A DNA stretch of 64,000 nucleotides, taken from positions 4,120,501 through 4,184,500 of the forward strand of contig NZ_CP033204.1 in assembly GCF_022701295.1 (NCBI RefSeq), written 5' to 3'. Below, piece after piece: positions 1 to 19,393 of the stretch. The number at the start of each line of letters is the position of its first letter. Position 1 is the first letter of the stretch. This DNA is from Sphingopyxis sp. YF1 (lineage in GTDB: Bacteria > Pseudomonadota > Alphaproteobacteria > Sphingomonadales > Sphingomonadaceae). Both the position numbers and the translations under genes were made by a program. The notes beneath the pieces were generated by a model. The model was given only the letters and a program-made list of their open reading frames with translations, was not told where the DNA came from and ran no database searches.

Positions 1-2
1 CT

Positions 3-1079: not shown

Positions 1080-1091
1080 GATGCGTGGTCG

Positions 1092-2186: not shown

Positions 2187-2849
2187 TCATCGCCGCCGGA
2201 ATGGTTCGCACGCCACGCCGTCGCCGTCTCCATCCATCTCTGGCCGATATCCCGGCTGACCGCGGTATAACGGCGCGGCACCCGCTGCCCATGCCGCATT
2301 GCAATTGCGGTAATAGACGCCGGACGGCGCCGGCGAGGCAATAGGCTGACGCGCGGCGGATGCCTGCGGTTTGGGTCGATGGGCTCTGGGATTGGCGGCC
2401 CGATAGTCGGCCGGCTGTTGGAAATCGGAATTCCAGATGCCCAGTTTGAGGGCCTTGGCGCGCGCCTCGGCGCCAAGATAGCGATCGCTAAACTGAGGCA
2501 ACGCAACTGCAAGGCCCGCTTCGACCATGGCTTGGCCCAGATCTATCAGCCGCGCGGTGCAGCTGGCGACGATCCGGTCATAATCATCGACATCGCGCTG
2601 CTCACACCGCATTTCGGCACCATTGACCAGTTGCGCCAGTTTCGCCGACGCTTCTTTGCCGCATGCCCAGCTTTGTCCCTCGCGCGCGCAAGTCTGGTTG
2701 AGCTCGGGGGCGTCCACACCGTGCAAGCGGATGACGATCCCCGCCATATTGAGAGTGTCGCCGTCCATCGCCCGGGCCGAGCCACTAATGCCCTGCGCGA
2801 ATGCGAACGCCGGCGTCAGCGCCAGCCCGATTACAAAGAACCATTTCAT
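2187..2849 (-). CDS. Secreted thermonuclease (SNase) with C-terminal Excalibur domain
   Basis: Predicted exported nuclease of the staphylococcal nuclease family, cutting DNA or RNA with Ca2+. Residues 1-19 form a signal peptide ending AFA-QG. The nuclease core shows DGDTL (29-33) and RLHGVDAPE, where Arg41, Asp46 and Glu49 have the spacing of catalytic Arg35, Asp40 and Glu43 of the S. aureus enzyme; an Arg in the YDRIVAS segment fits Arg87. After a proline-rich linker the last 40 residues are an Excalibur calcium-binding domain (YYRNCNAA, then DGDGDGVACE). The 220-residue protein is complete. It stands alone in an accessory region; nutrient scavenging or removal of extracellular DNA are possible roles. 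Confidence 0.88.
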   Translation of the reverse strand: MKWFFVIGLALTPAFAFAQGISGSARAMDGDTLNMAGIVIRLHGVDAPELNQTCAREGQSWACGKEASAKLAQLVNGAEMRCEQRDVDDYDRIVASCTARLIDLGQAMVEAGLAVALPQFSDRYLGAEARAKALKLGIWNSDFQQPADYRAANPRAHRPKPQASAARQPIASPAPSGVYYRNCNAAWAAGAAPLYRGQPGYRPEMDGDGDGVACEPFRRR

Positions 2850-3080
2850 GGGGGATAAACTAGCCCGGTCCGCTTACCAATTCCTTGATCATCCTCGATC
2901 GATTGAGCTGAATGTCCGCTATGCAAATATTCGCCCCCAAGACCGACTGACAGAATTGGCGATAGCTCGATCGACCAAGGCGCCGACCGCCCCGAAGTCC
3001 TTCGCCGCGGATCTGGAGCCGGTGACGGCCACGACAGTATTGGCCGAACCTTCAGACCAATGCCAAGCGCGCCGACTCTT

Positions 3081-3413
3081 CTAAGCTCCCGAACGGCGCT
3101 TCTGCATTCCCTTGATGATATCTCCAAGAACCAAGCGGTCGCGCAGATCGAGAGATTTCAGTTGACGGTAAATTACGAGCAACTGCTCGTCATCGCCATC
3201 TTCGTCCGGCTTCTCACCGACAAGGTGAGCGATGGACACCTCAAAATAATCGGCGAGCTTTCGGACGAGTTCGATCGACGGATTCTTGGCGGTGCCTTTC
3301 TCAAGCTCCCAGATATGGGCTTTCGACGCACCAATAGCGTCAGCCACTTCCTGAAGCGATTGCTGCTTTGACGTGCGAAGGTTCTGCAGCCTCATCGCCA
3401 ACGACACGCCCAT
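3081..3413 (-). CDS. XRE-family transcriptional regulator
   Basis: Small repressor-type protein of 110 residues with a Cro/CI helix-turn-helix at about 7-62 (LQNLRTSKQQSLQEVADAIG, then SKAHIWELEKG and LADYFEVSIAHLVG). The C-terminal tail is acidic and then basic and shows no known domain. An AAGGAGG motif lies only two bases before the ATG at 3413, so an in-frame GTG at 3407 or ATG at 3395 may be the real start. The gene diverges from the genes beginning near 3565, and the region between holds three copies of TCGTTCG, so it probably represses itself and its rightward neighbours (inference). Confidence 0.82.
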   Translation of the reverse strand: MGVSLAMRLQNLRTSKQQSLQEVADAIGASKAHIWELEKGTAKNPSIELVRKLADYFEVSIAHLVGEKPDEDGDDEQLLVIYRQLKSLDLRDRLVLGDIIKGMQKRRSGA

Positions 3414-3459
3414 GACCTCCTTAGACCCAACTTACCATGAGATCGGGGACATAGAAATC

Positions 3460-3531
3460 AACGATCGTTCGGTCAAGTGAACGCTTTCGTTCGATCGATT
3501 GACTTCGCTTATCGTATGATATATCGAACGA
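3460..3531. promoter_or_regulatory. Operator-like cluster, three TCGTTCG copies
   Basis: Upstream of the XRE gene the heptamer TCGTTCG occurs at 3465-3471 and 3487-3493 on the plus strand and at 3525-3531 on the minus strand. Two are embedded in palindromes: AACGATCGTT (3460-3469) and ATATCG-AA-CGATAT (3521-3534). Repeated part-palindromic sites in a divergent intergenic region are what an autoregulated XRE repressor would use. Binding is inferred. Confidence 0.5.
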
Positions 3532-3564
3532 TATTGTTATTATCTGTCATACTGGAGGTGACGC

Positions 3565-3657
3565 TTGGACCATAGCCAGCATAGCATTGCCGAGCCTCGC
3601 GGCTGGGCCGTCCACTCGGCGGAACTCATGCTCTTGGATCAACTATCCGGCGGCTGA
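3565..3657 (+). CDS. Possible 30-residue peptide with TTG start
   Basis: A perfect GGAGG (3554-3558) stands six bases before a TTG codon, opening a 30-codon frame that begins (M)DHSQHSIAEPRGW and ends LDQLSGG. It lies just downstream of the operator cluster and its stop overlaps the ATG of the next short frame (ATGA). There is no recognisable domain. It could be a leader peptide or a chance frame behind a good ribosome binding site. Confidence 0.3.
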   Translation: MDHSQHSIAEPRGWAVHSAELMLLDQLSGG

Positions 3658-3767
3658 TGAGCGAGCGCGATACGCGCGCAGAGACCATCCGGCACAACAC
3701 CCTGAGGCCTTGTCGGGGGCGAGTGGCATTGATGTTTCAAACCAAGCGGGAGAATAGGCATGGCTAA
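3657..3767 (+). CDS. Possible 36-residue basic peptide
   Basis: Short frame starting at the A of an ATGA overlap with the preceding 30-codon frame, reading MSERDTRAETIRHN and ending TKRENRHG. It overlaps the start of the next gene (3760) by eight bases, so all three could be translationally coupled. It is rich in Arg and has no known domain. Support is only the overlap chain; it may be a non-coding leader. Confidence 0.22.
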   Translation: MSERDTRAETIRHNTLRPCRGRVALMFQTKRENRHG

Positions 3768-4626
3768 GAATACCATCAAATCGCAGGCGCTTGTTCCGGC
3801 TGAGCGGCGCCAGACGGCCGTACGCAGGAAAACGGCGACGCTAGTCGTCGTGCCCGCAACGGTCGACACGCTGCTGCCGATCCTCGGCTCCGAATTCGCC
3901 GCCGAGAAGCTGATCGGCGACGGAGGCGATGTCACCCGAGAGGGCGGCGTCGGTCTCGTTACCGGCCGCGCCTATGCAACTCGCGAATGCGTCGTTCCCG
4001 CAGAAGAAATATTCTACGATCAGGCCGCGCGGCCCGGTGGCAAGGGCGCGTGGCTCGGAGAGGCGGACAAGGTCAGCTGGCGCGATACGGCGAGTGGATA
4101 CGACTGCATCATGTTGCGTAACACGGATAATGGCTTTCTCTGCGGATATGTCGGCATTCCCAAGGATCACCCTCTCTGGGGCTGGGATGCAAACGCCGTT
4201 CCGCCGGACATCGGGATCGATGTGCATGGCGGTTTGACTTATTCAAGACTGTGCGAAGAAGGGCCGAGTCCGACGCGTCGGTTAGCCGTCGAAGCGCGCC
4301 GCATCTGTCACGTGACATTACGACCGGCGGTCTACCATCCGGTAGAACACGCAACCGACCACCGGGTCGAAGATTCGCATGCGTGGTGGTTCGGCTTCAG
4401 TTGCGATCATGCCTTTGATCTTATTCCGAACGCTAGGCCGAATTCCTCCGGATCGAAGTCCTCGGAGCTTGGACGGATATATCGCGACGACGCATATGTT
4501 GTCAGAGAAACGGTCGCCCTCGCAGCTCAGCTGCGAGCAATCGCTGAAGGAGACGCGGCGCCCGCGCGCGATGGCGCGCCGCCGCCGCTCGGCCTCGACC
4601 CTCGTCGCGGGGGTGGCCGTGGCTGA
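3760..4626 (+). CDS. Hypothetical protein of phage/plasmid type
   Basis: A 288-residue protein I cannot assign to a function. The ATG at 3760 is preceded by GGGAG at good spacing. The middle has GYVGIPKDHPLWGWD, then HGGLTYS, then WWFGFSCDHAFDLIP, and the C-terminal part ends in a helix like YVVRETVALAAQLRAI. This order (a GYVG-P-HPLYG-like segment, a HGGLTYS segment, a WWxGFxCxHxxD segment, a helical tail) recurs in small phage and plasmid proteins of unknown role as far as I recall. The last 40 residues are Pro/Arg/Gly-rich. It overlaps the next gene by eight bases if that gene starts at GTG 4619, suggesting co-translation. Confidence 0.7.
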   Translation: MAKNTIKSQALVPAERRQTAVRRKTATLVVVPATVDTLLPILGSEFAAEKLIGDGGDVTREGGVGLVTGRAYATRECVVPAEEIFYDQAARPGGKGAWLGEADKVSWRDTASGYDCIMLRNTDNGFLCGYVGIPKDHPLWGWDANAVPPDIGIDVHGGLTYSRLCEEGPSPTRRLAVEARRICHVTLRPAVYHPVEHATDHRVEDSHAWWFGFSCDHAFDLIPNARPNSSGSKSSELGRIYRDDAYVVRETVALAAQLRAIAEGDAAPARDGAPPPLGLDPRRGGGRG

Positions 4627-5392
4627 CTTTGAGCGTCACGTCGGCGAACTCCCGTGGGGCTGGTGGCTTCGAGCCAATCCGCGCGGCTACGAGGATGCCT
4701 CTGGGCGAAATTGGGCGAGCGTCAGGGACGCCTTCTGGGAGGGAGAACTTGGATTCCCGCCGGTCCACTTCGCACCCGAACAGCATGAACTGATGCTGAG
4801 GGTCATGACCGCGATCGATGCGCGCTGGTTTGGCACGGAGAGCAACCACGATGTTTTCGGCGGGGACATGATGTTCTGGCGATTCTATCTGTGCTGGCTC
4901 GCCAGCATCGGTATGGTCGAGACATCGGCGGGGAGGGACCTCTTCGGTGGGGGGCTGAGCTCATTGGGCAGGTCCGTCCTCATGATGCTGCAGGCCACGC
5001 GCGAGCCGGAATTCGAGCGCTTGCCAATGGCGGCGGTCGTGGCAGCGGTCAGCGTGAACAAGGGGCTCGACGCCGAGGCGCGGGAGCAGGCGCTGATCGA
5101 CTTCGAGCGGGAGGTGGGTTTCCGCCGCCATGTGTTCGCGCGCGAAAATCTGGGAAGGCGATACCTGGTGACGTTGACCGGACTTAAGGTTGGCGCGCGA
5201 ATGCCGACGCGCAATATCGCGTGGTCGCAGTCCTTCGCCGATGCAAATTCGCGCGATGATCTCTTCGCCTGGCTCGCCGAGCGGGTGCACTGTTGGGATG
5301 ATTGGGGTGAAATCGCCTACCGAAAGGGCGCGTCTGCGCTGACAAGCCATTTGTTGTCGGTCATAGTCGGAGCGGGCGGCCTGGCTCGGTGA
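4619..5392 (+). CDS. Hypothetical protein, accessory region
   Basis: Unrecognised protein of about 257 residues beginning (V)ADFERHVGELPWGWW. I prefer GTG 4619, which overlaps the upstream stop by eight bases and follows a GGGGTGG stretch; an in-frame ATG at 4571 would give a longer basic N-terminus (MARRRRSAST). The protein is rich in Trp and Phe early on (WRFYLCWLASIGM near the middle) and has helical segments with LARRNAW-like composition later, but no domain I can name and no signal peptide. It is probably in one transcription unit with the gene before it. Confidence 0.6.
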   Translation: MADFERHVGELPWGWWLRANPRGYEDASGRNWASVRDAFWEGELGFPPVHFAPEQHELMLRVMTAIDARWFGTESNHDVFGGDMMFWRFYLCWLASIGMVETSAGRDLFGGGLSSLGRSVLMMLQATREPEFERLPMAAVVAAVSVNKGLDAEAREQALIDFEREVGFRRHVFARENLGRRYLVTLTGLKVGARMPTRNIAWSQSFADANSRDDLFAWLAERVHCWDDWGEIAYRKGASALTSHLLSVIVGAGGLAR

Positions 5393-5648
5393 TCGCTCGT
5401 CGCGGGGAAGATGCAAGCTGGCCGTTGAGCGTGGTCTATCATGTCGTCGAGCCGACGGCCAATTGAGCGTGTCCGCGCGATGACGGAGCTTCTGTATTCG
5501 CGTAGGACATGACAGCTTTCTCCGGAGGGATGTCTCGGCAAGGAAGCTGTTCAGAACAAGTCGAAAGCGAAATCTATATCACCCGGCAAGGCAGCGATCT
5601 TGTTGGGATAATGCTAAACTGGATGTAGGAACCTTCCATATAAATGTT

Positions 5649-6656
5649 TCACCATGAACGACCGGACACTTTGCAAAATAGTCGCTTCGGCTGGTCGAAA
5701 TTTACCTGGATGGCCTGTTGATCGCCAATTTCTATCGAACTGGCTTCAGTGATGATCATGTCGCTGGACAATATGGGATGCTCGATCAAGCGAGTTATCG
5801 GCTGACCCGCCAATTGGCTGATCGCGATCTCGGGAAGGGTGCAATTCCACAACGTGAGCGAGCTACCATTCCAGTGAAAATTGGAATTTTGCGCGTCGTA
5901 ACCTTCGCAGCCAATGTGTCCGTCTCGGACATACAAGTACAAATCAGGATGACGTGCTTCAACAGTCCGATTGGCGACCCACCTTATTCCGTCAGCGATA
6001 TCACATCGCTGCGCGATAGCATTGATTGCGATTTGGTCAATCGACCCGTCCGCTCCTTGGCGCGCCAGTTCGGTTTTCCTAGCGAATCTTAAGTCCATAA
6101 GTTCTCTGTGCGTTTTGAGCTCCGCGTTCAGCAAACTTGGATGGTCTGCAAAAATATTGAGTTCAGAAGGTCTGAGTTTATTATCAAGCACTCGAAATTC
6201 TAAATCTGATAGATATTCTTCTCTTCCGCACCACTCGTCTCTCAACAGCCGCGGTTTTACCAGTTCGGCATGCGTTGCGCCTCCTGACCATGTCGATAGC
6301 GTCTTTAGTGCCTCATGGCGGGCGTCATAAAGCATTGCGGAGAGAACATTTATCCCTGTTTTGCGAAAGTCCTCAAACACGGCGCGTATAGCCTGACCGA
6401 TCGCATAGCTGTCGGTGCATATCCCTCCTCGTTCTGTGTCGTCGCAATCGCCATATCGAACAACGACAAATGCGCCCGAGGAGAATTCAAGTTCGACCTC
6501 GAAATCATAAGTGTCACCGCAGTCTGCCCTTATACCGATCGATGTAATTCGGGGACGCCAATCGAAACCCCTCAAATGCTCATCCACATATTCAAGTATT
6601 TCAAGTGCGAGCTTGGACGCTTTGCTCCTGCCCTCATGTCTATACCACATTTTCAT
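5649..6656 (-). CDS. Hypothetical protein
   Basis: A 335-residue protein with no domain I recognise. I chose ATG 6656 (MKMWYRHEGRSK) because GGAG lies nine bases upstream; the frame stays open seven codons further. The N-terminal 110 residues contain alternating beta-like stretches (YDFEVELEFSSGAFVVVRYGD). The middle is helical (LLNAELKTHRELMDLRFARKTE), and the C-terminal 100 residues are again beta-rich with YLYVRDGHIGCEGYD and WNGSSLTLWNC. The gene is more AT-rich than the core region to the right, which fits acquired DNA. It is flanked by 250-base and 115-base gaps and probably transcribed alone. Confidence 0.6.
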   Translation of the reverse strand: MKMWYRHEGRSKASKLALEILEYVDEHLRGFDWRPRITSIGIRADCGDTYDFEVELEFSSGAFVVVRYGDCDDTERGGICTDSYAIGQAIRAVFEDFRKTGINVLSAMLYDARHEALKTLSTWSGGATHAELVKPRLLRDEWCGREEYLSDLEFRVLDNKLRPSELNIFADHPSLLNAELKTHRELMDLRFARKTELARQGADGSIDQIAINAIAQRCDIADGIRWVANRTVEARHPDLYLYVRDGHIGCEGYDAQNSNFHWNGSSLTLWNCTLPEIAISQLAGQPITRLIEHPILSSDMIITEASSIEIGDQQAIQVNFDQPKRLFCKVSGRSW

Positions 6657-6772
6657 TGCGTTAGGCTCCAATGGCACATGACCGCGCCGTTAATTTTTTG
6701 AGGGTGGCAGATCGACATGCGCCGAGGCTTGGAGCGCACGGTTTTTCACGGCGACAAGGTGGGCAATTAGTA

Positions 6773-7360
6773 TCATTGCCAAATGAACAGGCCGATGATC
6801 AGCGCAGTCTGGAATGCGCTAATGGCATAAAGCCTCCAGGGCTGCGGATTGAGCTGCTCGCGGGCTCGTGCGAGAAACTCTGTGGTCCAGACGCGCATTT
6901 CCGTTTCGATGAATTTTTGGAATGAATCACGCGTGTACTTGAATTCCCCGTGCGCCGACGCAAAGTGGGCGGCAAGTTGGCTGACGTCGCGCCCCAGCCG
7001 CTCAATTTTTGCAATCCGCATGTCGAGTTGTCCGGCGCTCTGACTGGCGGCGGTAGAAATTTGAGCTACCAGTCGACCCGCCAATTCTTCAGCGTCCTGC
7101 ATACTCGTCCGCCGCTGCGTTTCCGCGACTGCAATTACCTCTCCCGTGTATTGGGTAGCCCTCAGCAAATCGTTCACGAGGTTGCTCCCGACCTTCAATA
7201 TGCCTGTCAACAGCCAGACGAGATTGTCCTTTTCAAGGTTGTGTTCTTCGGCGAAGCGCAGGATCAGTTCGACGTCGCCGCTGCCGTACAAATATTTCTC
7301 GAGCAGCTCTCGCGCCGAGGTAGAAGACAGAGTTTGCAGATCGATATGGGGCTTTTTCAT
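6773..7360 (-). CDS. TraM-like mobilization accessory protein with C-terminal membrane helix
   Basis: A 195-residue protein starting MKKPHIDLQ. It is helical for most of its length: an N-terminal region (LLEKYLYGSGDVELILRFAEE), a central probable coiled coil (about 75-150, with RIAKIERLGRDVSQLAAHFA), and a single hydrophobic helix at the very C-terminus (LYAISAFQTALIIGLFIW), so it is likely tail-anchored in the inner membrane. Its ATG overlaps the stop of the ParA-like gene by one base (TGATG), showing translational coupling. Order traK-like, ParA-like, then this gene matches traK-traL-traM of IncP plasmids, where TraM has an accessory role. The identity is from position and architecture, not clear sequence similarity. 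Confidence 0.55.
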   Translation of the reverse strand: MKKPHIDLQTLSSTSARELLEKYLYGSGDVELILRFAEEHNLEKDNLVWLLTGILKVGSNLVNDLLRATQYTGEVIAVAETQRRTSMQDAEELAGRLVAQISTAASQSAGQLDMRIAKIERLGRDVSQLAAHFASAHGEFKYTRDSFQKFIETEMRVWTTEFLARAREQLNPQPWRLYAISAFQTALIIGLFIWQ

Positions 7361-8202
7361 CAGAAAGGCCTCCATTCGATGCCTTCGAGACCCAGCAGGT
7401 CTTCGATCTTCTGGAACTCGCGAACCCATTTGTTAAGCCATGAGGCCATGTTGAGCCGGTCATATTGTTCATAATCGCCACCGACATGAGTCGCGGACTG
7501 GGCAAATGTGAGGCTCAGCGCCTCCGCCAGCGCGAACGGCCGCATGGGGGCGGGTGGCATGTCGATGACCTGACCGCCCGCTTCTTCGAACTTGCGACGG
7601 ACGTTACCGCCGACCGTGCGGCCATAAAAATTAGTGAGAGGTTCGGACGACCAGAGCCGATAGTCGTCATCCCGCACTCCCGCCATATAGCGAGCCCCGA
7701 CATAAGACACCTCGCCGAAGGTATCGATGGCCTTGCCCACGCCGCGGATAGCAGCAACGGTTGGTCCAAAGGGGACAAGAACGATCGGCTCGCGATCATT
7801 GTCGCGAATATGATCGACAAGATCGCGGGCCGTCAGCGATTCAGACAGGGATCCGAAGCGATCGAGCGACCCTGACGGCGTATCGATGATTACAAATTCA
7901 GCATCTGATTCTATCGCGTGAAAGATTGGGCGGGCGCCGTCGCGATCGAACAGATCAGCCTTGATAATCCCCTTATAGGGATCCTGCTCAGCGAGCAGTT
8001 TGCCAGAATCATCGCGCTCGCCCAAACGCTGAGTCAGAGAGCCATTGGCCTTGTCGGCGTCGACGATCTGGACACGGAAATGACCTTCGCCAGTGGCCCG
8101 CAAAACGGTCGCGAGCGCGGTCTCCGTCGTGCTGAGGCCTGCGCCCCCCTTATCTTTGGCGCCGATGACTGCAATGCGGCGTCTTATGTCTCTGGTCGTC
8201 AT
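7360..8202 (-). CDS. ParA/TraL-like ATPase-fold protein with altered Walker A motif
   Basis: A 280-residue protein of the ParA/MinD P-loop fold: AVIGAKDKGGAGLSTT at 11-26, RVQIVDADKANGSL for the switch region, and EFVIIDTPSG for Walker B. The signature lysine before GG (Lys18) is present, but the phosphate-binding lysine of GK[ST] is Leu23, confirmed by the CTC codon on the coding strand. It may therefore bind nucleotide poorly or not hydrolyse it. I chose ATG 8202 because AGGAG sits eight bases upstream; the ATG at 8208 would leave only two bases. It lies between the traK-like and traM-like genes, as IncP TraL does, so a mobilization role is likelier than chromosome or plasmid partition. Confidence 0.7.
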   Translation of the reverse strand: MTTRDIRRRIAVIGAKDKGGAGLSTTETALATVLRATGEGHFRVQIVDADKANGSLTQRLGERDDSGKLLAEQDPYKGIIKADLFDRDGARPIFHAIESDAEFVIIDTPSGSLDRFGSLSESLTARDLVDHIRDNDREPIVLVPFGPTVAAIRGVGKAIDTFGEVSYVGARYMAGVRDDDYRLWSSEPLTNFYGRTVGGNVRRKFEEAGGQVIDMPPAPMRPFALAEALSLTFAQSATHVGGDYEQYDRLNMASWLNKWVREFQKIEDLLGLEGIEWRPF

Positions 8203-8211
8203 TCGCATTTC

Positions 8212-8815
8212 TCCTTCGTTTCGGATCAGATTTCTTCTCGAAGCCCGATGCGCGAGGCAAACGGAGGCCATCTTCCTTGGTCTAGGGTCTTCATGAAGCC
8301 TGGGGCGGTAAAGGAGCGGCCACGGTCTCGGCGGCCGTTGGCACGGCGGTCTCGGGCGGCTTGCTTGATTGCTCGGCGCCGGACTGCGCTGCAGTCGCAT
8401 GAGCACCAGATTCGGCACTCGACGCCGCTATCTGGTCCACGTCTGCGAAAAGCTTTCCGGCATTCGCGTGCCAAATTCTCTCGATAGGAGTCGTTGGGTT
8501 GTATCCGCCCTTGTGCTTGCAGCAGAAGATCGCGGGGCTGCGTGCTATTTCTTTGGTCGCCATTTAATTTTTCCTTCGTTTGGGATCAGATTTCTTCATC
8601 GAGATCGATGCCCGGCTTGAACGGGGTCTCAATCGTCTTGGTCTCGCGCGCTGATGAAGTTTGGGACCGCGTCAGGATGGCTTCATCCTGGGCAGACGGT
8701 GGTTCGACGATCTCGGGCGGTTTATCTGGCGGCGCGGGATCGGACGGGGCTGCCGCGGCATGCGGATCCATTTCGTCACTCGACTCCGCGATCTGGTCCA
8801 TCTCCATGGATGGTT
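8212..8815. repeat. Imperfect tandem duplication of the traK 3' end
   Basis: Two related segments in direct orientation: copy A about 8212-8445 and copy B about 8571-8815. Shared stretches include TCCTTCGTTT then GATCAGATTTCTTC at the left ends (8212 and 8572), CTCGGGCGG in the middle, and CACTCGAC followed by ATCTGGTCCA at the right ends. Copy B is the end of the traK-like gene; copy A has indels and is split between two reading frames. Similarity was aligned by eye, so the exact ends are approximate. Confidence 0.7.
8291..8563 (-). CDS. Hybrid small protein carrying a duplicated traK tail
   Basis: A 90-residue frame with AAGGA eight bases before ATG 8563. Residues 1-40 (MATKEIARSPAIFCC, then HKGGYNPTTPIERIWHA) are unlike anything I know. 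Residues 41-85 (DVDQIAASSAESGAHA, then SSKPPETAVPTAAETV) align with the C-terminal tail of the traK-like protein (EMDQIAESSDEMDPHA, PDKPPEIVEPPSAQDEA). The frame then stops early, while the remaining homology (KTLDQ to REEI) continues in another frame. It may be a decayed duplicate or a small expressed adaptor; the intact ribosome binding site favours some expression. Confidence 0.45.
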   Translation of the reverse strand: MATKEIARSPAIFCCKHKGGYNPTTPIERIWHANAGKLFADVDQIAASSAESGAHATAAQSGAEQSSKPPETAVPTAAETVAAPLPPQAS

Positions 8816-9146
8816 CTTCCGGATTTTCGCGGCGCAGGCGGCTGAGGTACACCCGCAAAGTCTCTGCCGAGATTGCAACGCCAAGCTCATGCAGGAATTC
8901 GACGATTTGCGCGTCGGTCCAGCCATTGGCACGGCGAGTAAGGATTAACGGCGCTGCCGTTCGAATGACGCCCATAAGGGGGACGCGCCGCTGAGGAGGA
9001 TCTTGGACGTCTGCCTCGCGCTGAGCATTGACCACAGTCTCGATGGCCGCGGCATCAAACAATGGACGCTTGCCTTGAGGTAACCTCGTTCGTCCTTCGG
9101 ATAGCGCTGCGCTTGCGAGCTTTGGTGGGGGCGATGATGTGTTCAT
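8586..9146 (-). CDS. TraK-like oriT-associated DNA-binding protein
   Basis: A 186-residue protein. The central part (about 45-115) has PLILTRRANGWTDAQIVEFL followed by GVAISAETLRVYLSRLRRE, a pattern like the DNA-binding region of IncP TraK-type proteins, which wrap the oriT region and assist the relaxase. The N-terminal 40 residues are basic and unstructured, the C-terminal 70 are acidic and Pro/Ala-rich (ending KPGIDLDEEI). It is transcribed leftward, away from the candidate oriT at 10.0 kb and the rightward relaxase, as in the traK side of RP4. An 11-base inverted repeat begins five bases before its ATG. Function is inferred from motif and layout. Confidence 0.6.
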   Translation of the reverse strand: MNTSSPPPKLASAALSEGRTRLPQGKRPLFDAAAIETVVNAQREADVQDPPQRRVPLMGVIRTAAPLILTRRANGWTDAQIVEFLHELGVAISAETLRVYLSRLRRENPEEPSMEMDQIAESSDEMDPHAAAAPSDPAPPDKPPEIVEPPSAQDEAILTRSQTSSARETKTIETPFKPGIDLDEEI

Positions 9147-9150
9147 CCCA

Positions 9151-9199
9151 GCATTTTAGTCTGGAGGCATTGACTAAAATGCAAAATGTCACATATTTT
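9151..9199 (+). promoter_or_regulatory. 11-base inverted repeat over divergent control region
   Basis: GCATTTTAGTC at 9151-9161 is exactly complementary to GACTAAAATGC at 9172-9182, with a ten-base loop. It starts five bases upstream of the traK-like ATG, and its right arm overlaps a TTGACT (9170-9175) that with TATTTT at 9194-9199 (18-base spacing) resembles a plus-strand promoter for the double-HTH gene at 9259. A protein bound here would control both directions. The neighbouring double-HTH protein is the natural candidate, by inference. Confidence 0.55.
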
Positions 9200-9258
9200 T
9201 ATTCAGGATTAATCTGCGGTCTCATCGGCATGCGGAATTTTAGAGAAAGTTATACTCA

Positions 9259-9810
9259 ATGCGACTGTTCGAACCCGAGGCTGAATTACGAAAGGCCCGG
9301 AAAGCGTGCAATTTGACACAGGCTAAGCTCGCACGACGGACTGGCTACAGCCGGGAGACAATCTCGAGGATCGAAAGTGGCCAACGCAAAATGTCACGCG
9401 CATTTCGCGATATTCTTTTGCGTGAGGAGGTGTTGGGCAAACATTTGCCTCAAGAAGCCGGTCTAGGCGACGCGCCGGCGGGATGGCGCAATTATCGCTG
9501 CTATCTTGCGCGCTGGATCGGAAAACGTTCAATGGCCGATGTTGCACAGGCGGTCGGGATCAGCATCAGCTCGGTGAGGAAGTTCGAACGCGCCGAGGCG
9601 ACGCCCCGGGGCATCGTGGGAACCCGGCACTCTGCCAACTATTGGGACGTTAGCGAGTCCTATGCCAAGGCGCTCGGTTTCGATGGCGTCGAAGATGCCG
9701 AAGCCTATTTGGACGCGAAAGATATCACCCCTTGGCTAAGGCGCATCGCCCGAAAACGCGGCACTGAAGATCGCCTTAAAGCCGCTCGCATGCCGGCGCC
9801 TGACTACTGA
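9259..9810 (+). CDS. Tandem helix-turn-helix (XRE-type) regulator
   Basis: A 183-residue protein with two helix-turn-helix units. The first (about 8-58) is LRKARKACNLTQAKLARRTG with YSRETISRIESGQRKMS; the second (about 90-125) is MADVAQAVGISISSVRKFER. The remainder is helical (YAKALGFDGVEDAEAYLDA) with a basic tail. It lies between the traK-like gene, from which it diverges, and the candidate oriT, the position of traJ in IncP plasmids. It could repress the divergent mobilization promoters or bind oriT; the sequence does not decide. The intergenic inverted repeat at 9151-9182 is its most likely target. Confidence 0.78.
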   Translation: MRLFEPEAELRKARKACNLTQAKLARRTGYSRETISRIESGQRKMSRAFRDILLREEVLGKHLPQEAGLGDAPAGWRNYRCYLARWIGKRSMADVAQAVGISISSVRKFERAEATPRGIVGTRHSANYWDVSESYAKALGFDGVEDAEAYLDAKDITPWLRRIARKRGTEDRLKAARMPAPDY

Positions 9811-10178
9811 CGTGGCGACGTCGATGGGTTGATCAAACCTAGCGCCAGCAATCTTAGGCCATCGCTGACGATCCGGAGCCTCCTGCCGGGCCATTGCACT
9901 GCCTTGTTATGTTATGTCATGTTCGGACATGACGCCCAAGATCACGTTGTGTTCCAGCCTATTAGGTGCGGCTGCGCTATGAGGCGCAATGAAATACCGG
10001 TCCATTTTTTTGACACAGGATGGGGCTTCACCTGAGAGGTGAAGCCGACGCCACGGCTGCTCGGCGCTTCGCTTCTTGCAGCCATGGCGAATTCGGCCAC
10101 GTTAGTAGTAGTCCCACGCTGTAGGTGATTGTTACGGAAGATTAGATTGGCGGCGCCGCGCAGCGCCACCATTTCCCA
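9811..10178. other. Intergenic region holding the candidate transfer origin
   Basis: About 370 bases without a gene between the double-HTH gene and the relaxase. It contains GTCATGT-TCGG-ACATGAC (9916-9933, perfect seven-base arms), the oriT hairpin and nic core near 10015-10046, and a GC-rich imperfect repeat just before the relaxase start. Concentrated dyads between divergent mobilization genes are typical of oriT regions. Confidence 0.55.
10015..10046 (-). other. Candidate MOBP-type oriT: hairpin plus nic core
   Basis: Read on the minus strand, a perfect ten-base inverted repeat with a three-base loop (GGCTTCACCT-CTC-AGGTGAAGCC, 10046-10024) is followed at once by C and then CATCCTG-T (10022-10015). 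CATCCTGT matches the IncP/MOBP nic consensus YATCCTG^Y exactly, so the nick would fall between 10016 and 10015 on this strand. It lies 135 bases before a MOBP-like relaxase gene and right of the leftward traK-like set. Position and motif are seen; nicking is inferred. Confidence 0.68.
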
Positions 10179-12209
10179 GTGATGGTCATTGTCGAAAAAC
10201 CGGCGAAAGAAAAGGGCGGCGCGGGATCCCACCATGCGCGGTCGCTCGCCCGCTATATGGAAACTGCCAAGCGTAATGGTCAGGCTCACGAATTTGGTCT
10301 GGATCTTGCCCATTATTTGTTGGCTGACAAGTCGCCCGACGCACCGCAGGAAGAACGCGTCATCGACCTTGGAGGCCTGAGCCAAGGGCAAAACATGGAT
10401 TGGGCCTCCGCTCGCGATGAAATGGAACGTCGCCTCGCGCTGCGCTCTTCGCGGTCGAAGAAGCCGGCGCGACATGTGATCGCGTCGGTGCACGGCGATG
10501 AGAAAATTGATGGCAATTCCTGCAGCCGGATAGCGATGGTGTTGGCCGAAGAACTTGGTTGCACAGATGCGCTGATCTTGTGGACACTGCACGGCGACAC
10601 CGACAATCTGCATCCGCATTTTTTGATCGTGACCCTTGACGAGAAAGGCGGCGCCACCCCCTTTGGTCCTTCGGGTTTGTCGCATGAAGCAATGCAGCGA
10701 GCGTGTGCCCGTCTGGAATATGAGCTTGGACTGAGACCGGAACCAGGGGCTCGCTACGTAGCCGATGCCCAAATGGTTCGCCGCGTTGAGCCGGTTGTGA
10801 CCAAGCCCGATAAGGCGAAGCAGCCCTCGCCATCACTCAAAACCCTGCAATGGGAGGAAGAAAGCGGCGTCGAGTCTTTTACGCGTTTTTCCCAAAAGCA
10901 ACTCGCACCACTTCTGCATTCCGCCCGGAACTGGAGTGAGGCCCAGACGGCACTGGCCGAGCACGGCGTGATGGCGGTGCAGACAGGATCAGGCGGCGAG
11001 CTACGAAGCGCAGACGGCGTTCATCGCGTCAAGATGTCGGTCGTGGACCGAAAGCTGAGCATGCCGCGGCTAATCAAGAAATGGGGACCCTGGACGACGC
11101 CCGAACCGCCTGAGCATCAGTTCATTCCACGCATCATCGACCAGGAAAGGGCGGGAGCCTGGGCGACACGCGACCGGCATCGGACTGCCGCATGCGCTGT
11201 TATCCAAGAACGCATCGCTCGGTTAATGGCGGAAAAATTAGCCGCGGTGACGATGCTGGAAGCCGAGCGTCGAATCTGCCGCGCCGAGGTTGCAGCGCTT
11301 GCGCCCGACCCTGCGGTCATCGGGGTTGGTGCGCTTCAGTCAGCGGTCTCATCGATGTTCAAATCCCGGATCGCCGACGTTCGGGTGCAATATGATGCCC
11401 GGATCGCTGCGCTCCGCCAATTGCGGGCTCAAATCGACGAATTCCCGGATCCTGCGGCGGTCGATCTCCCATCTCTCGAGGGAAGCGATGCGTCGTTTGA
11501 TCTGCCATGGTCGCCGATTCAGCCGGGCCCGCGCGAATTGCACGGCTATCGGTCCGTCGAAGTGGGCGATGCGACCCAATATTGGTCCATCGAAGAAGGC
11601 ATTCGGCAGCCTGCATTCGTCGAACGCGGCAACCGCATCTGGCTACAAAATACTTCCGACGCGACCCTTCGGGCTGCGCTGTTGGTAGCAATGAATCGTC
11701 ATGGAGATGTCGCAGCGTTTGGCGGCAAGGACTTTATTCGCCAAGCTCAACGGCTCGGCGCAGAACTCGGGATAGCCGTTCAAGCCCGTCCGATCTTGCA
11801 GCCAGAAACGGTGCGCATGCGTTCGCGGCGTGCTGAGCGCTGGTACGCGGCTATCGACGCTGCTGCAGGCCGCAGTCAAAATGTCGCATCCCATACTGCG
11901 GACCCAAGCACCGAGGCCGACAGGGCGGGCGGTATCGACCGTGATGTGACAGCATTCCCGGTCAATGCTTCGGAAGGATATCGGCTGCCTATGCGCCTGC
12001 GTCGCCGGGTCCGGGCTGTCGTCGCACAGCGGCTGGCCCGCTGGGACTGGGATCCCGGAGAATACCGCGAACGTGACACAAGCGTCGCCCGCGCGGGTCC
12101 GCATAAATACACTGATGCCGATCGCCGGTCGGGGCCAATCAGGCCAGATGAGCCGAGAAACACGATGCAACAGGCCCGAAGCCGGCCACCCGCTGATTGG
12201 TCGCGATGA
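10179..12209 (+). CDS. MOBP-type relaxase (mobilization endonuclease)
   Basis: A 676-residue protein that should nick oriT and pilot the strand into the recipient. The N-terminal 200 residues form the relaxase domain: a Tyr in SLARYMETAKRN (about residue 26) is the best nucleophile candidate, and HGDTDNLHPHFLIV (138-151) carries the metal-binding histidines 138, 145 and 147 of motif III. HVIASVHGDEK precedes it, as in VirD2/TraI-type proteins. The middle (about 340-410) is helical and coiled-coil-like (ERIARLMAEKLAAVTMLEAE). The tail is basic and ends without a helicase or primase domain. The start is GTG 10179 or ATG 10182; neither has a strong ribosome binding site. Confidence 0.85.
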   Translation: MMVIVEKPAKEKGGAGSHHARSLARYMETAKRNGQAHEFGLDLAHYLLADKSPDAPQEERVIDLGGLSQGQNMDWASARDEMERRLALRSSRSKKPARHVIASVHGDEKIDGNSCSRIAMVLAEELGCTDALILWTLHGDTDNLHPHFLIVTLDEKGGATPFGPSGLSHEAMQRACARLEYELGLRPEPGARYVADAQMVRRVEPVVTKPDKAKQPSPSLKTLQWEEESGVESFTRFSQKQLAPLLHSARNWSEAQTALAEHGVMAVQTGSGGELRSADGVHRVKMSVVDRKLSMPRLIKKWGPWTTPEPPEHQFIPRIIDQERAGAWATRDRHRTAACAVIQERIARLMAEKLAAVTMLEAERRICRAEVAALAPDPAVIGVGALQSAVSSMFKSRIADVRVQYDARIAALRQLRAQIDEFPDPAAVDLPSLEGSDASFDLPWSPIQPGPRELHGYRSVEVGDATQYWSIEEGIRQPAFVERGNRIWLQNTSDATLRAALLVAMNRHGDVAAFGGKDFIRQAQRLGAELGIAVQARPILQPETVRMRSRRAERWYAAIDAAAGRSQNVASHTADPSTEADRAGGIDRDVTAFPVNASEGYRLPMRLRRRVRAVVAQRLARWDWDPGEYRERDTSVARAGPHKYTDADRRSGPIRPDEPRNTMQQARSRPPADWSR

Positions 12210-12240
12210 CCGAATTTACTGTTCACCAAGGAGAATTGCA

Positions 12241-12528
12241 GTGCCGACCAACGATGTTTTCCAGCCGAGCCAGTTCCAAACCCTGCGGCGAGATGACGAC
12301 CATATCAGCCCAGTACTCAGCCATCCGGCATCCGGGGTGACGTTGACGCCCGATCCCGCTTGCACCTCGTGCCGGGCTGCGATGTGGCTATTCGACACCG
12401 ACATCCGCTGCTTCTGCAAAGTGCTCAAGGAATATACGTGGGGACGAGGGCGTGATCCGGTCATCGCCTGTGACGAGCGCGAAGCCTTGGCCGAAGTCGC
12501 TGAAGAAGCAAGCCGCGGATCGGATTGA
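12241..12528 (+). CDS. Small Cys-containing hypothetical protein
   Basis: A 95-residue protein starting at GTG 12241, placed by AAGGAG seven bases upstream. It contains CTSC (about residues 42-45) and CFC (about 57-59), which together could bind a metal, within ACTSCRAAMWLFDTDIRCFC, and a helical acidic C-terminus (DEREALAEVAEEASRGSD). No family recognised. It follows the relaxase by 31 bases and is probably co-transcribed with it. Confidence 0.62.
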   Translation: MPTNDVFQPSQFQTLRRDDDHISPVLSHPASGVTLTPDPACTSCRAAMWLFDTDIRCFCKVLKEYTWGRGRDPVIACDEREALAEVAEEASRGSD

Positions 12529-12844
12529 TCCGCAGAGTACGTTTCGTCGACACCACAGGCGCAACGTCGTTCTTCTGCTCATGTACCAGTCTATGGGGAA
12601 GAGACTAATCGGCAGCCGCCGCCGCCGATCACCGGCTCCCAGAAATACTTGCCACCCATAAATGACGACCACCCCTGCGGCGCAGCCGCAGACCGACCTC
12701 GCATGTTCGCCAAATGGAAAAGCGGGACGCGCCTTCGCGCCCGCTGAACAATGGAGACGCTGACGCGGGAAGCGAGGAACAGGGTGAAAGGAAAAGAGGC
12801 AGGAGTTCTGTCTCGGATCCCTGATCCTCCGAAAGGAGAATATC
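12529..12844 (+). other. Gene-free stretch upstream of next gene
   Basis: About 315 bases. I see a small hairpin, CTGCGGC-GCA-GCCGCAG (12675-12691), with no T-run, a GCC-rich repeat near 12615-12630, and AAAGGAG just before the GTG at 12845. No convincing gene or promoter. Confidence 0.4.
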
Positions 12845-13609
12845 GTGAACGAGTATCAACTTCCCAAATGCCTGCAGGTGATCGGTCTGGCGTGCATTCC
12901 CGTCAACGACATACCAGACGAGCATCCGGCGCTGGCACGCAGGCCGGTTGCGGCGGCGGTCCTGACGATGGTCGATCAAGATGATGGTCATCGCTGGATC
13001 AACACGATCTGCGTCTCCGACGCGCGCAAGTCGGAAATCCCATTGCCGCACTTGCTCGACAAGACGCTGTTGCCGGCCGCAGTCCAGATCGTGTCCACGG
13101 CCGATCGCATGACGTTGGCGATGGACGCGATGAGCCGGCGCTTCTTCGTTGAGCCGGCGCTTGCCGATCTCTGCTTTGGCGAGACGGCTATCGATCCCGC
13201 CGCAATGGGTAACCATGGGTTCGATGAGCGAACAGCGTGCCGTCGCTTCTCGATCCCGATGCCCGAGATCGGCGATGCGGACATCGAGCTGGCCTGGTCG
13301 CGCTCCGCGCCGGCGGCAGCCGAAGACCATGCGCTTCGCATAGCGACGGCACGCCTGATGCTGTGGGCGCATGTCGAAGCGTTCCGCAGCGCGCGGCCGG
13401 AACCCTTCTTCGAGACCATGCTGGCGCTTCGCGACTGGATCGATGCCAGCGAGTATCTGACAGCCGCGCTCGCCGATATCGGGAACTCACGCCCAATTCG
13501 CCGCGCAGACTCGTTCGCGCACCATTATCGCGACTATCGACAACGCCTCGCTGCGGGCGACGAAACCGCGAGATGGGTCAGCTTCGAGGACGGCCTGTTC
13601 CACGCCTGA
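12845..13609 (+). CDS. Hypothetical plasmid-type protein
   Basis: A 254-residue protein of unknown function. The GTG at 12845 has AAAGGAG at good spacing and gives MNEYQLPKCLQVIGLACIPV. The first 120 residues look alpha/beta (AAAVLTMVDQDDGHRWINTI, then IPLPHLLDKTLLPAAV); the C-terminal half is helical (ARLMLWAHVEAFRSA, FETMLALRDWIDASEY). There is no signal peptide or membrane segment. It sits among mobilization genes and is GC-rich like its neighbours. It is followed by a structured intergenic region and a plus-strand terminator. Confidence 0.6.
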   Translation: MNEYQLPKCLQVIGLACIPVNDIPDEHPALARRPVAAAVLTMVDQDDGHRWINTICVSDARKSEIPLPHLLDKTLLPAAVQIVSTADRMTLAMDAMSRRFFVEPALADLCFGETAIDPAAMGNHGFDERTACRRFSIPMPEIGDADIELAWSRSAPAAAEDHALRIATARLMLWAHVEAFRSARPEPFFETMLALRDWIDASEYLTAALADIGNSRPIRRADSFAHHYRDYRQRLAAGDETARWVSFEDGLFHA

Positions 13610-13647
13610 GCGCGCCTAACGCGTAAACTCACTATCGATGAAAAAAT

Positions 13648-13682
13648 GGCCTCGCTGCTCGGGTCGCTCGAGCAGCGAGGCC
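13648..13682 (-). terminator. Strong 14-base hairpin, T-tract on minus strand
   Basis: GGCCTCGCTGCTCG (13648-13661) pairs perfectly with CGAGCAGCGAGGCC (13669-13682) around a seven-base loop. Read on the minus strand it is followed by ATTTTTTC, so it has the form of an intrinsic terminator for leftward transcripts. No leftward gene lies nearby to the right, so a structural or protein-binding role is also possible. Confidence 0.45.
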
Positions 13683-13837
13683 TGCGAGCGTGCATATGCA
13701 CAACGCTTCGCATGCGATGGGCCGCTGTCACGGCCGACGGCGGGCCACTAACGACCACTCTTAAATATCCGGTAAATCAACGCCCGGCAGCCGCTGCGGT
13801 GCCGCTTCGCCGTTTCTCCATCACACACAAACTCAGC

Positions 13838-13868
13838 AAGGGGACCGCAGCGATGCGGCCCCTTTTTA
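13838..13868 (+). terminator. Intrinsic terminator
   Basis: AAGGGG(A)CCGCA-GCGA-TGCGGCCCCTT followed by a T-run (13862-13867) forms a GC-rich stem with one bulged A. It ends about 20 bases before the ATG of the MobA/MobL-like gene, so it should close the upstream transcript or attenuate the downstream one. Confidence 0.6.
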
Positions 13869-13888
13869 TTCGTAGAAAGAAGTACCAA

Positions 13889-14533
13889 ATGACGACCATC
13901 CACAACATCCGCCCGTTCAACACCCGCTATGTGATCCGGGACCGGTCAAGCCGCTATACGCCCGAACTCTTGCGCACCCACCGCACGGCGCAGGCGAGCT
14001 ACGCTTACATCAACCGCCAGAACAGCGTCGATGAATGGGGTCCGACGCCGAACTGGGCGTCGCGCTCTGACCTTGCGGCGGCGGGCCGATGTGCTCCTGC
14101 CCGCGCCGCCGGACCCAAACTGGGGGGAATCGCGCTGTGGGCACAAGCGGACGAGAATGCGGCCCGGTATAGGCCCGACGAGCCGACCATTGCACATTGC
14201 GTCGGCAGCCTGCCGCGTCATGAGGATCTCGCCTTCTGGCGCAATCTGATCGAAGGCTTTGCCGAGGATTTTCTTGTGGCCCGCGGCATGGTGGTCGACT
14301 GGGCGATTCATCATCAGGCGGAAAGCGACGATCAACCCGAAATCGCGCCGCACGCGCATCTCCTCATCACCTTGCGAGGATATGACCCCGAGCACCGCGA
14401 TTACGGCAAGGTCCGGCAGAACTGGCTGCGGACGGACAATTCTCGCAAGCGCCTCGCGGAGCGTTGGTGGGATCGGACCGGGATCGTCCCGCCCGAATAT
14501 GTCATGGCAGCGACAACGCAAAAATCCCGCTGA
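13889..14533 (+). CDS. Stand-alone MobA/MobL-like relaxase-domain protein
   Basis: A 214-residue protein. Residues about 100-195 resemble the MobA/MobL (MOBQ-type) relaxase domain: CVGSLPRHEDLAFWRNLIEG, then VDWAIHHQAESDDQPEIAPHAHLLITL with His155 and His157 of the metal-binding triad, then KVRQNWL. The N-terminal 90 residues do not show the usual motif I region with its catalytic tyrosine, and there is no helicase domain. It may be a divergent or non-catalytic relative. I chose ATG 13889 (MTTIHNIRPFN), just after a terminator; upstream sequence in frame is non-homologous. Confidence 0.62.
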   Translation: MTTIHNIRPFNTRYVIRDRSSRYTPELLRTHRTAQASYAYINRQNSVDEWGPTPNWASRSDLAAAGRCAPARAAGPKLGGIALWAQADENAARYRPDEPTIAHCVGSLPRHEDLAFWRNLIEGFAEDFLVARGMVVDWAIHHQAESDDQPEIAPHAHLLITLRGYDPEHRDYGKVRQNWLRTDNSRKRLAERWWDRTGIVPPEYVMAATTQKSR

Positions 14534-14696
14534 GATCGTGTCGGCACCGAGCACCGGTAACGCCCGGTGCCGGACGTTCTGAATATCAATTTGCTGTTTC
14601 TGGCACCTTGGAAGGATCGGGCAGCCATGCCTACAGGCCGGAATGGGGAGAGGAATTGAGCGGAGAGGATGATCTGAAGATCAGAGGAGAAAAGAA

Positions 14697-14969
14697 ATGT
14701 TTATCGTCGGACCAATTGCCGTGGTCGTTGCCGTGTGTGCCACCGTCATTTTTATGCGCGAAATGCCGCGCCTGTTTGCATTGCTCATCGTCCGGATCGC
14801 CGACCGGCTGTCGGCAGCTAGGCACACTCAGATAGTGGAAGCGCTTAACGGCCGCAAAGTGCCAGCGACTTGGACGGCGGCGTCGGAAGATCGCAAGTTG
14901 TTGCACGCCGCCATGCGCTCTACGATGCGTGTGACGACGTTTCGCTCGCTCTATCCTCTGAACCGCTGA
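14697..14969 (+). CDS. Small membrane protein
   Basis: A 90-residue protein with GAGGAG eight bases before ATG 14697. Residues 3-32 are hydrophobic (FIVGPIAVVVAVCATVIFMR, interrupted by REMPR, then LFALLIVRIA), giving one or two membrane-inserted helices; the rest is basic and cytoplasmic-looking. No known family. Small proteins of this kind are common beside mobilization genes, but I cannot assign a job. Confidence 0.55.
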   Translation: MFIVGPIAVVVAVCATVIFMREMPRLFALLIVRIADRLSAARHTQIVEALNGRKVPATWTAASEDRKLLHAAMRSTMRVTTFRSLYPLNR

Positions 14970-15136
14970 AATCGGCTGTTAGGCCCATTTTGACTGCGAC
15001 AATTTACCAGAATGATTTGCATGCGGTTCGCCTCGCCCGCAAAACACGGCATTCTCTAATTTCGAACCGTGTGACTCGAGGAGCCAATGTCTCCAAGGAA
15101 GCGGAGATCTCAGATGATGGCTTTTCGGGGAAATGC

Positions 15137-15922
15137 TTACCTCCCGGTCAATTGGCGATAGAGCGACACGATCTCCGACTTTGACAAGCTCGGATTGCCC
15201 GCCACGTTGAGCGCGACCCTGGTAAAGTTGAGCCGTTTCATTATTGGCTCCACCTCGCCTCGAATGAAATAGTGGGAAGACGGACTCCGCGTGAAGTCTC
15301 GGTGCACGCGGCCTGCTCGCGCACCGACGCGCTGTATCGCGAAGTCGGCTCGATCTGGCGTCGTAAAGCTAAAATCCCGGTGATGGATTGCGACATGTTG
15401 CAACTCTCGCAGCTCATCGCGACGCTCCCAGATCTGGAATATAGCCGGTACGTCGTACGGCTTGGACCTGAATAGGAACGCGTCACGCTGCACAGTCTCC
15501 TCGTGGATTAGATGGAAGTTACGATCGAGGCGATTTTCTATGGAAGCCTTCCGAAAGGTTCGCGGCAGTATCAGTGCGATGACACTCGCCTGCCATGCAG
15601 CATGGTTGAAGAAGCGTACTGCCATACTGGCACTCCGGCCGAACGGCGGATTGCCGACCACAGCCACCTCTCGTTCGCTGCGGATTTCAACAGATAGGAA
15701 ATCAGCTGTAACTATGCCAGGGAACTTTGGATCAACATCAAACGCCAAGCTCCCTTGGGGCATCAGCATGAAAAACGATCCCGTACCGGCGCTCGGCTCG
15801 ACTAGCTGGTATCGCTCTGGATCGCATAATTTCCGGAAAGATCGATAGAGTTTTTGTGCTACGTGTTGACGTGTGTAATACTGGTCAAGCAGTACATCAC
15901 TCGCTTCCATAAAATTTTTCAT
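15137..15922 (-). CDS. Orphan N6-adenine-type DNA methyltransferase
   Basis: A protein of about 261 residues with the S-adenosylmethionine-dependent methyltransferase fold. After DQYYTRQHVAQKL it has motif I LVEPSAGTGSFF (40-51), an acidic residue after the second strand (AFDVDPK) and the catalytic motif IV VVGNPPFG (88-95). NPPF/Y marks amino-methylation of adenine (or cytosine N4). I chose ATG 15922 with AAGGTG upstream; the frame is open to ATG 16087, but those codons are AT-rich and look like non-coding DNA. No restriction partner lies beside it, so it is an orphan enzyme that may protect the element or regulate it. Confidence 0.75.
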   Translation of the reverse strand: MKNFMEASDVLLDQYYTRQHVAQKLYRSFRKLCDPERYQLVEPSAGTGSFFMLMPQGSLAFDVDPKFPGIVTADFLSVEIRSEREVAVVGNPPFGRSASMAVRFFNHAAWQASVIALILPRTFRKASIENRLDRNFHLIHEETVQRDAFLFRSKPYDVPAIFQIWERRDELRELQHVAIHHRDFSFTTPDRADFAIQRVGARAGRVHRDFTRSPSSHYFIRGEVEPIMKRLNFTRVALNVAGNPSLSKSEIVSLYRQLTGR

Positions 15923-16327
15923 TTTTACACCTTCGAGACAAAATTCAATCTCGTCGGGCATTTGTATTTTGCCGACCCTAGGTTTTAGGATGGCCGGCAG
16001 GTTCTCCCAAGCTGATGAGTGATTTTTTTTCAGATATTCTATTTTTTGGCTATAGAAGACATAATATATATGGGCGTCATATTGCATTTAAGGTCGGCAG
16101 AAGGCCGGATTTGCGCGGGGGACATCGCGGCGGGGGTGCGTAGGCGAATGGATGCGCTTGCCTTTCGGGACAAGCAACAAGGCGCCGCTGATCTCGGTAC
16201 AATCGCCCGTTAAGCCACTTGCTGTTCAGGAGCCGGGCTAGCGGATGCGGGTCGAGCAAGTTCCTTCTGGGACGCTTCCGCTACGCGCCTCATATCGGAC
16301 GTTCGAAAGAGCGTCGGAACAGGTTGA

Positions 16328-16999: not shown

Positions 17000-17272
17000 G
17001 AGATCAGGCGCCGGGCAAGGCGTCGCCGAGGTTGGGAAGGGCAGACAGGAGCTGATGCACAAAGCCGGTTGAAATCGCCGGATCTGGAAAACCCATTTTG
17101 GCCGGTGCACTCCGAGTGCGAGCAATTGGTCGGGGCCCGATCCGCGCGAAAGTCATCATGGCCAGCGGCGCATGACAAGGCCGCATCATAGGCCGACACA
17201 TGGCTGCACCAACCAGCAACTGCATCATCCAGAAACCGCTTGCCAACGGAGGGCCGTCCACACACGGCCATC

Positions 17273-19243: not shown

Positions 19244-19393
19244 GCGCTGGTGCGGACAAATCGCCGTTGGACTGCTGATTTTCAATTTTCTTGCTCTTCC
19301 GATGCCGACTGGCCAAAAGTCTATTGGCGAAACATCCAATTAAATCCGCGCACCGGCGTATTTCCGTGAACGGTTCGATCGAGGTACGTCGAC

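Follow-up and report, generated by a model that had tools for sequence, protein, structure and literature searches.

A 116-kb tRNA-Glu island of Sphingopyxis with a MOBP-type relaxase and a predicted oriT, probably an integrative mobilizable element

The stretch of DNA analysed here, referred to below as the window, comprises 64,000 nucleotides (C1:4120501-4184500, C1 being the chromosome) of the 4.37-Mb single-contig genome of the environmental bacterium Sphingopyxis sp. YF1 (G000), and includes, at positions 1..41734, part of a genomic island that ends at a tRNA-Glu gene. A mobilization module lies within this part. As an earlier note made from the sequence had described, leftward accessory genes are followed by a rightward relaxase gene encoding the motif HGDTDNLHPH, with a candidate origin of transfer (oriT) between them. 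The analysis below examines this module, the island that carries it and the means by which the island may spread.

The MOBP-type relaxase, its predicted oriT and accessory genes

The relaxase gene occupies 10182 (or 10179)..12209 on the plus strand, the start codons of all module genes being our choice, and its product contains Relaxase, TraI_middle and LPD7 domains. Profile comparison indicates that the protein is of the MOBP type: PF03432 scored 52.9 bits (cut-off 24.6), TraI_middle scored 45.8 bits (cut-off 27.6), and hhalign matched it at 100% over 510 columns to the relaxases of IncP and IncQ-2 plasmids, which agrees with the family expected in the earlier note. With residues numbered from the GTG at 10179, H138, D140, H145 and H147 are invariant and Tyr26 is nearly invariant across 20 sequences (one, P0013, is truncated before Tyr26), and we take these five residues to be catalytic by analogy with the family. 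Identity to plasmid relaxases was 21-31% among the 40 matches listed of 475. Searching PDB sequences with the profile of the relaxase returned no relaxase, and of nine pattern matches to relaxase relatives in viral contigs none was confirmed.

The four named loci with close relatives of the relaxase all belong to Sphingopyxis (L007-L010), while a further 27 genomes with relatives lie outside the genus. Twelve regions from 11 of these, selected by us, were taken at length, and the other 16 genomes were scanned afterwards as short loci (17 loci). The window and L007-L010 are near-identical to one another, as are L056 and L075, and L077 and L082, and none of these sets counts as independent.

The oriT core (10009..10088, minus strand) comprises a nick motif, a hairpin (IR1) and a second stem-loop (IR2, 10055-10083). 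IR1, upstream of the relaxase gene at 10024-10046, has perfect 10-bp arms and a 3-nt loop, and one base after it the sequence CAGGATG at 10016-10022 gives the minus-strand reading CATCCTG, with T as the next base (10015). Both hairpin and motif had been noticed earlier, as had the exact fit of CATCCTGT, here adjoining an inverted repeat, to the MOBP nick consensus (C/T)ATCCTG(C/T) (PMC3772185). The predicted nick would fall on the minus strand at CATCCTG^T, between 10016 and 10015. Defined as a stem of at least 6, a loop of 2-8 and a hairpin end 0-2 nt before YATCCTG, the combination of hairpin and motif occurs once in the 64-kb window. In 100 trials of first-order Markov sequence, such sites arose at 0.02 per 64 kb for stems of at least 7 and not at all for stems of at least 8. 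Real DNA gave a higher rate, with one site of stem at least 7 (stem 9, in the flank of the island copy in another genome) in 266.5 kb of island and chromosome that include partly duplicate sequence. The oriT single strand also folds with a z-score of -3.6 relative to 200 shuffles.

The Sphingopyxis loci (5/5) all have the same 80-bp oriT core while the surrounding DNA varies; as these loci are 95% alike, this identity alone is weak evidence, and the changed stems of divergent relatives provide a stronger test. In the group at 44% relaxase identity (L071 and L072) the site is kept with slightly changed loops, at 35% identity (L074) an entirely different 10-bp stem stands ahead of the same CATCCTGTGTCAAA, and in a distant group (~25-27% identity) still other stems precede CATCCTGC. 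The nick motif was present in all 20 relaxase loci, at most 900 bases upstream of the relaxase start or at it, and adjoined a perfect stem of at least 7 in 16 of them. Among the 16 further genomes, ten had such a site, in every case on the predicted strand and 366-888 bases upstream of the relaxase match. The conservation of the hairpin-nick element in relatives, on which the earlier note had staked its proposal, is thus seen with stems that differ in sequence. IR2 carries a TC(C/G)GC segment and occurs with a flanking stem of at least 5 in 12/20 loci, versus 0.6% in base shuffles, with arms that vary (GGCTGC/GCAGCC, CGGTTGC/GCAACCG, CCTGC/GCAGG and AATGC/GCATT). Compared with known plasmids, the oriT region gave only short matches (at most 14% of the query), as did positions 1-24000 of the window (at most 4%). 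Compact sets of integrase-like gene, oriT and relaxase gene with the same kind of hairpin-CATCCTGC site occur in other sphingomonads (L056 5469-10220, L075 6496-11250 and L076 7187-11443, the latter two in reverse-complement coordinates).

Three genes on the minus strand and one on the plus strand lie on the other side of the oriT from the relaxase. The product of 7360..8202 is a ParA-superfamily ATPase, as previously proposed, and is related by profile comparison to TraL/MobD (hhalign 96.7%, versus 0.9% for the IncC partition ParA used as a control), while that of 8586..9146, which has a short helix-turn-helix (HTH)-like segment and a proline-rich tail, moderately resembles TraK/MobC (82.5% over 49 columns; R751 TraK gave no match by tblastn); these comparisons of accessory proteins rest on small alignments. 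The gene at 6773..7360, whose start overlaps the stop of the ATPase gene and whose product has a hydrophobic C-terminal end, occupies the place of traM/mobE. No kinship of its product to TraM/MobE was detectable (hhalign 0.3%); homology was dropped, although the protein may be a diverged relative, and the name traM-like used in the earlier note is a positional label. A tandem-HTH protein is encoded at 9259..9810 (plus strand), between the traK-like gene and the oriT. It had been assigned to the traJ position, but it lies on the traK side of the oriT, and its candidacy as a TraJ/MobB homologue was rejected (hhalign probability 1%); the 132 bases between hairpin and relaxase hold no TraJ/MobB-type gene. 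Of the complete IncP-like module once proposed, the IncP-like core therefore stands and its completeness does not, as no TraJ-like gene and no TraM kinship were found. Loss of TraJ/TraK or MobB/MobC strongly reduces transfer in the respective plasmid groups (PMC6856555), and the tandem-HTH protein may therefore perform TraJ's role. The order traM-place gene, ParA-like gene, traK-like gene, HTH gene, oriT and relaxase gene is common to L007-L010, L071 and L072 (where a contig end cuts the traM-place gene), while in L073 and L074 genes for the ParA-like protein, the traK-like protein and the relaxase are present but the HTH protein has no match.

Like the island, the IncQ-2 plasmid pTC-F14 has three leftward genes, an oriT and a rightward relaxase gene. 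An alignment suggested by the earlier note revealed very similar nick contexts (AAGTCCCATCCTGTTCAAAATA in pTC-F14 versus AAGCCCCATCCTGTGTCAAAAAA in the island), a downstream TCGGCGCT-CGCTTCT segment common to both, and part of the IR2 segment in the plasmid. However, pTC-F14 has a CopG-type gene (presumably the one named mobB) between oriT and relaxase, where the island has an empty gap and the tandem-HTH gene across the oriT. Furthermore, pTC-F14, the mob module of which is classed as MOBP14 and has been studied for mobilization (PMC6856555), is a replicating plasmid while the island is integrated, and the two relaxases are 27% identical over 274 residues. The IncP-1 plasmid R751 shares with the island the traM-traL-traK / oriT / relaxase polarity, the strand of the nick motif and, by profile, a ParA-like TraL and a moderate TraK-like kinship. 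In contrast, R751 has traJ between oriT and relaxase, whereas in the island TraJ, a transfer channel and a coupling protein were not found and TraM kinship was undetected. The module is a variant of the IncP layout and not a copy of it, and in its nick context it comes close to pTC-F14.

Ends, copies and content of the island

The island is a single 116.1-kb element bounded by 17-bp direct repeats. Its right end (attR) is the 3' end, at 41735-41751, of the tRNA-Glu(TTC) gene (41735..41810, minus strand), where the GC fraction steps from ~0.70 outside to ~0.59 within the island, and its left end (attL, C1:4046153-4046169, beyond the window) is a 17-bp copy of the same 3' end that directly adjoins a tRNA-Glu(CTC) gene. 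The two tRNA-Glu genes stand as an adjacent pair, by exact pattern, in 10/79 congeners, as expected of the empty site; the lack of a pattern match in the other 69 does not mean that the site is occupied there. An integrase that is tyrosine-recombinase-like, with a DUF6538 N-terminus, is encoded next to attR (39832..41646, minus strand). GTGTAC-type repeats, possibly arm sites of the integrase, lie by both element ends (window ~41660-41685 and C1 ~4046230).

The same element occupies the same tRNA pair in a second Sphingopyxis species (G024), with 0 differences over C1:4046152-4162236 (116,085 positions). Differences between the two genomes begin immediately outside the element, and the right-hand flank, in the blocks that align, shows ~82-86% identity. 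This combination of an unchanged interior and a divergent right-hand flank is strong evidence, barring a mix-up of strains or reads, that the copy in G024 records the recent movement of precisely this 116-kb segment. Across 80 Sphingopyxis genomes, the integrase was found in nine (E<=1e-60, some partial) and a full-length relaxase in six, and only the two genomes with the identical copies had both. As integrase and relaxase are so rarely together, the module for integration and that for mobilization seem to be exchanged independently of each other.

The genes of the island are mostly catabolic. In the 28 of 59 open reading frames (ORFs) left of the window and the selected window genes that were annotated, the cargo includes parts of a phenylacetate-type oxygenase, TonB receptors, hydrolases and galactoside genes. 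A backbone block surrounds the module (2187..16087; nuclease-like, HTH, unknown, mob and methyltransferase-like genes), and its order is kept in L008 and L009, while L010 has no match to the gene at 15137 and L007 ends at a contig edge. The product of that gene (15137-16087) contains EPSAGTGSF and NPPFG motifs, which we take to mark an adenine DNA methyltransferase-like protein, and a homologue (69%) adjoins the traM-place gene in L071. Another protein of the block (3760-4626) matches phrog_2164, a phage protein family without an assigned function, and 16361-17269 matches, at 76%, a transposase of the IS110 family from a Croceicoccus plasmid. Next to the neighbouring tRNA-Glu(CTC) is an apparent second, small island of ~8.3 kb (L011 7715-16121 = C1:4037715-4046121), whose far end carries a partial tRNA repeat.

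A minimal MOBQ-type relaxase in the same module

Downstream of the MOBP relaxase gene, the module encodes a second, minimal relaxase of MOBQ type (13889..14533, plus strand; 214 residues), on which the earlier note was silent. The protein keeps the minimal relaxase fold, with a MobA_MobL domain over its cut-off and 50.5 of the 200 bits of the NCBIfam MobQ equivalog (below cut-off). Tyr40, His141, His155 and His157 are invariant in 27 aligned sequences and are assumed here to be the catalytic residues. Between the two relaxase genes lie a gene for a conserved protein of unknown function (12845..13609, plus strand; 95-96% in L007-L010) and, upstream of the MOBQ-type gene, a 14-bp perfect inverted repeat (13648..13682), a candidate second cis site or terminator, both arms of which are identical in 5/5 Sphingopyxis loci with one loop base differing. 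The repeat and an adjoining conserved block span 13648-13717, and the corresponding gaps of L073 and L074 are likewise rich in hairpins. A search for an RSF1010-type nick motif with at most two mismatches gave three hits versus 3.94 expected by chance, and the motif was rejected as a site for the MOBQ-type protein. The MOBQ-type gene was not found in the L071 and L072 stretches.

These features are compatible with a dual-relaxase system, which we put forward tentatively and regard as a good deal less than probable, in which the MOBP relaxase at the oriT would cooperate with the MOBQ-type protein, the latter acting either at a conserved site of its own around 13648-13717 or on the strand being transferred (helping, for example, to recircularize or replicate the element after excision), and the tandem-HTH protein would replace TraJ. 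If true, this would make for a sphingomonad relaxosome of mixed ancestry. Relaxases of the MOBP and MOBQ families also occur together on plasmid pC of Pseudomonas syringae pv. savastanoi, where each has its own mobilization region and both are functional (PMC9791958). However, pC is a plasmid and its MOBQ relaxase, TraA, is described as full-length (PMC9791958), whereas the island is integrated and its MOBQ-type protein is a 214-residue minimal domain. As separate working MOBP and MOBQ regions on one plasmid are known (PMC9791958), the new part would be their co-operation in one integrated module. Similarly, streptococcal IME_Class_10 has two relaxase genes of different families on one integrative mobilizable element (IME), although these are MobV and MobT (PMC5357655) rather than MOBP and MOBQ-type.

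Probable transfer through the channel of another element

Consistent with the earlier note, which had seen no secretion genes nearby, no match to the VirB4 or coupling-protein (T4CP) families was found in the island, and tblastn of the island with nine R751 Trb proteins, TraG, TraF and the host's own Trb/TraG set returned the relaxase only (only part of the island ORFs were annotated). IncP-type Trb/TraG genes are present elsewhere in the chromosome, at ~3.884-3.903 Mb (L112 6135 to L113 6619 = C1:3884135-3902619), where TrbB, TrbE, TrbL, TrbG and an IncP-type TraG scored above cut-offs and TrbI-like and RlxS-like proteins below them; this locus is a plausible helper for the island. Since the island has its own relaxase and oriT, no recognised channel and an identical copy in a second species, it very probably moves between cells via the channel of another element.

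We therefore estimate a probability of about 0.85 that the island is, as the earlier note had suggested, an integrative mobilizable element with an IncP/IncQ-2-like relaxosome, a reading drawn from sequence comparison. The island encodes an integrase, is bounded by direct repeats at a specific site and has its own oriT and relaxase, and a channel or coupling protein was not found in it. For nicking, accessory-protein roles, excision and helper choice, we infer the following course. The integrase would recombine the two 17-bp repeats at tRNA-Glu(TTC) and thereby excise the island. The MOBP relaxase would bind the oriT hairpin, aided by the traK-like, ParA-like ATPase and traM-place proteins and probably the HTH protein, cut the minus strand at CATCCTG^T and remain on the 5' end through Tyr26. 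The strand would pass through a Trb/TraG-type channel of another element, such as the 3.88-3.90 Mb locus of the same chromosome, and reach the recipient with the traK side leading and the relaxase gene at the rear, after which the island would reintegrate at tRNA-Glu.

Several observations weigh against this reading. The integrase is under the Pfam cut-off (Phage_integrase 22.5 bits versus 27.1) and was assigned by family resemblance, and its pairing with the relaxase rests on one transfer event, as the two co-occur only in the identical copies. The left-hand flanks of both island copies show no alignment past a tRNA-like stretch. A perfect stem of at least 7 is missing at the nick motif in 4/20 loci, and no hairpin-nick site with such a stem was found in the short loci of 6/16 further genomes. 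The best NCBIfam model for the relaxase by far, TraI/MobA(P), reached 137 of 250 bits, under the equivalog cut-off; the protein is thus diverged and not filed as an RP4 TraI equivalog.

The mobilization module could also be a vestige with a dead oriT, the island having spread by transduction, transformation or carriage by a neighbouring conjugative element. Module and integrase are indeed unlinked in other Sphingopyxis genomes, and such modules do decay, as the L071 (G565) relaxase relative is split into three frames next to an intact-looking oriT. In the island, however, the module frames are open, the motif residues are invariant and the oriT core has stayed identical amid varying DNA, while an element of 116 kb would be a large load for many transducing phages, and we consider this explanation unlikely. 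It is far less likely still that the element is itself conjugative with an unrecognised or strongly diverged channel: many island genes lack a family match and the ORFs left of the window were scanned in part, but the family searches and the tblastn with R751 and host Trb/TraG proteins argue against it. Equally improbable is a chance or regulatory origin of the hairpin-CATCCTG element, with transfer performed by the MOBQ-type relaxase at a site of its own. That protein retains its catalytic residues and fold, has a conserved inverted repeat upstream, and has a counterpart in the MOBQ region that works beside the MOBP one in pC (PMC9791958); nevertheless, many lineages have the hairpin-nick pair upstream of their MOBP relaxases, including L071 and L072, in whose stretches the MOBQ-type gene was not found.

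The interpretation of the island as an integrative mobilizable element places it beside other described elements. An IncP island of Burkholderia glumae is likewise integrated and encodes a MobP relaxase and relaxosome proteins, but it also encodes TrbJ, TrbK and TrbL (PMC5704250), whereas TrbJ and TrbL gave no tblastn match in the present island. According to a 2017 review, none of the IMEs described in Proteobacteria was of the class that has its own canonical relaxase but lacks a channel or coupling protein (PMC5704250). Later work in Mesorhizobium delineated large alphaproteobacterial IMEs, many at tRNA genes and with their own relaxases, which as described there are MOBF or, in one case, MOBQ (PMC8627217), while the present island has a MOBP and a minimal MOBQ-type relaxase. 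New here would be a sphingomonad IME of the MOBP type for which the exact ends, a predicted nick site and a natural record of recent interspecies transfer are all at hand, which together make the mode of spread of a catabolic island directly testable. The pairing of a MOBP with a minimal MOBQ-type relaxase further raises the question of why two strand-cutting enzymes are kept in one module.

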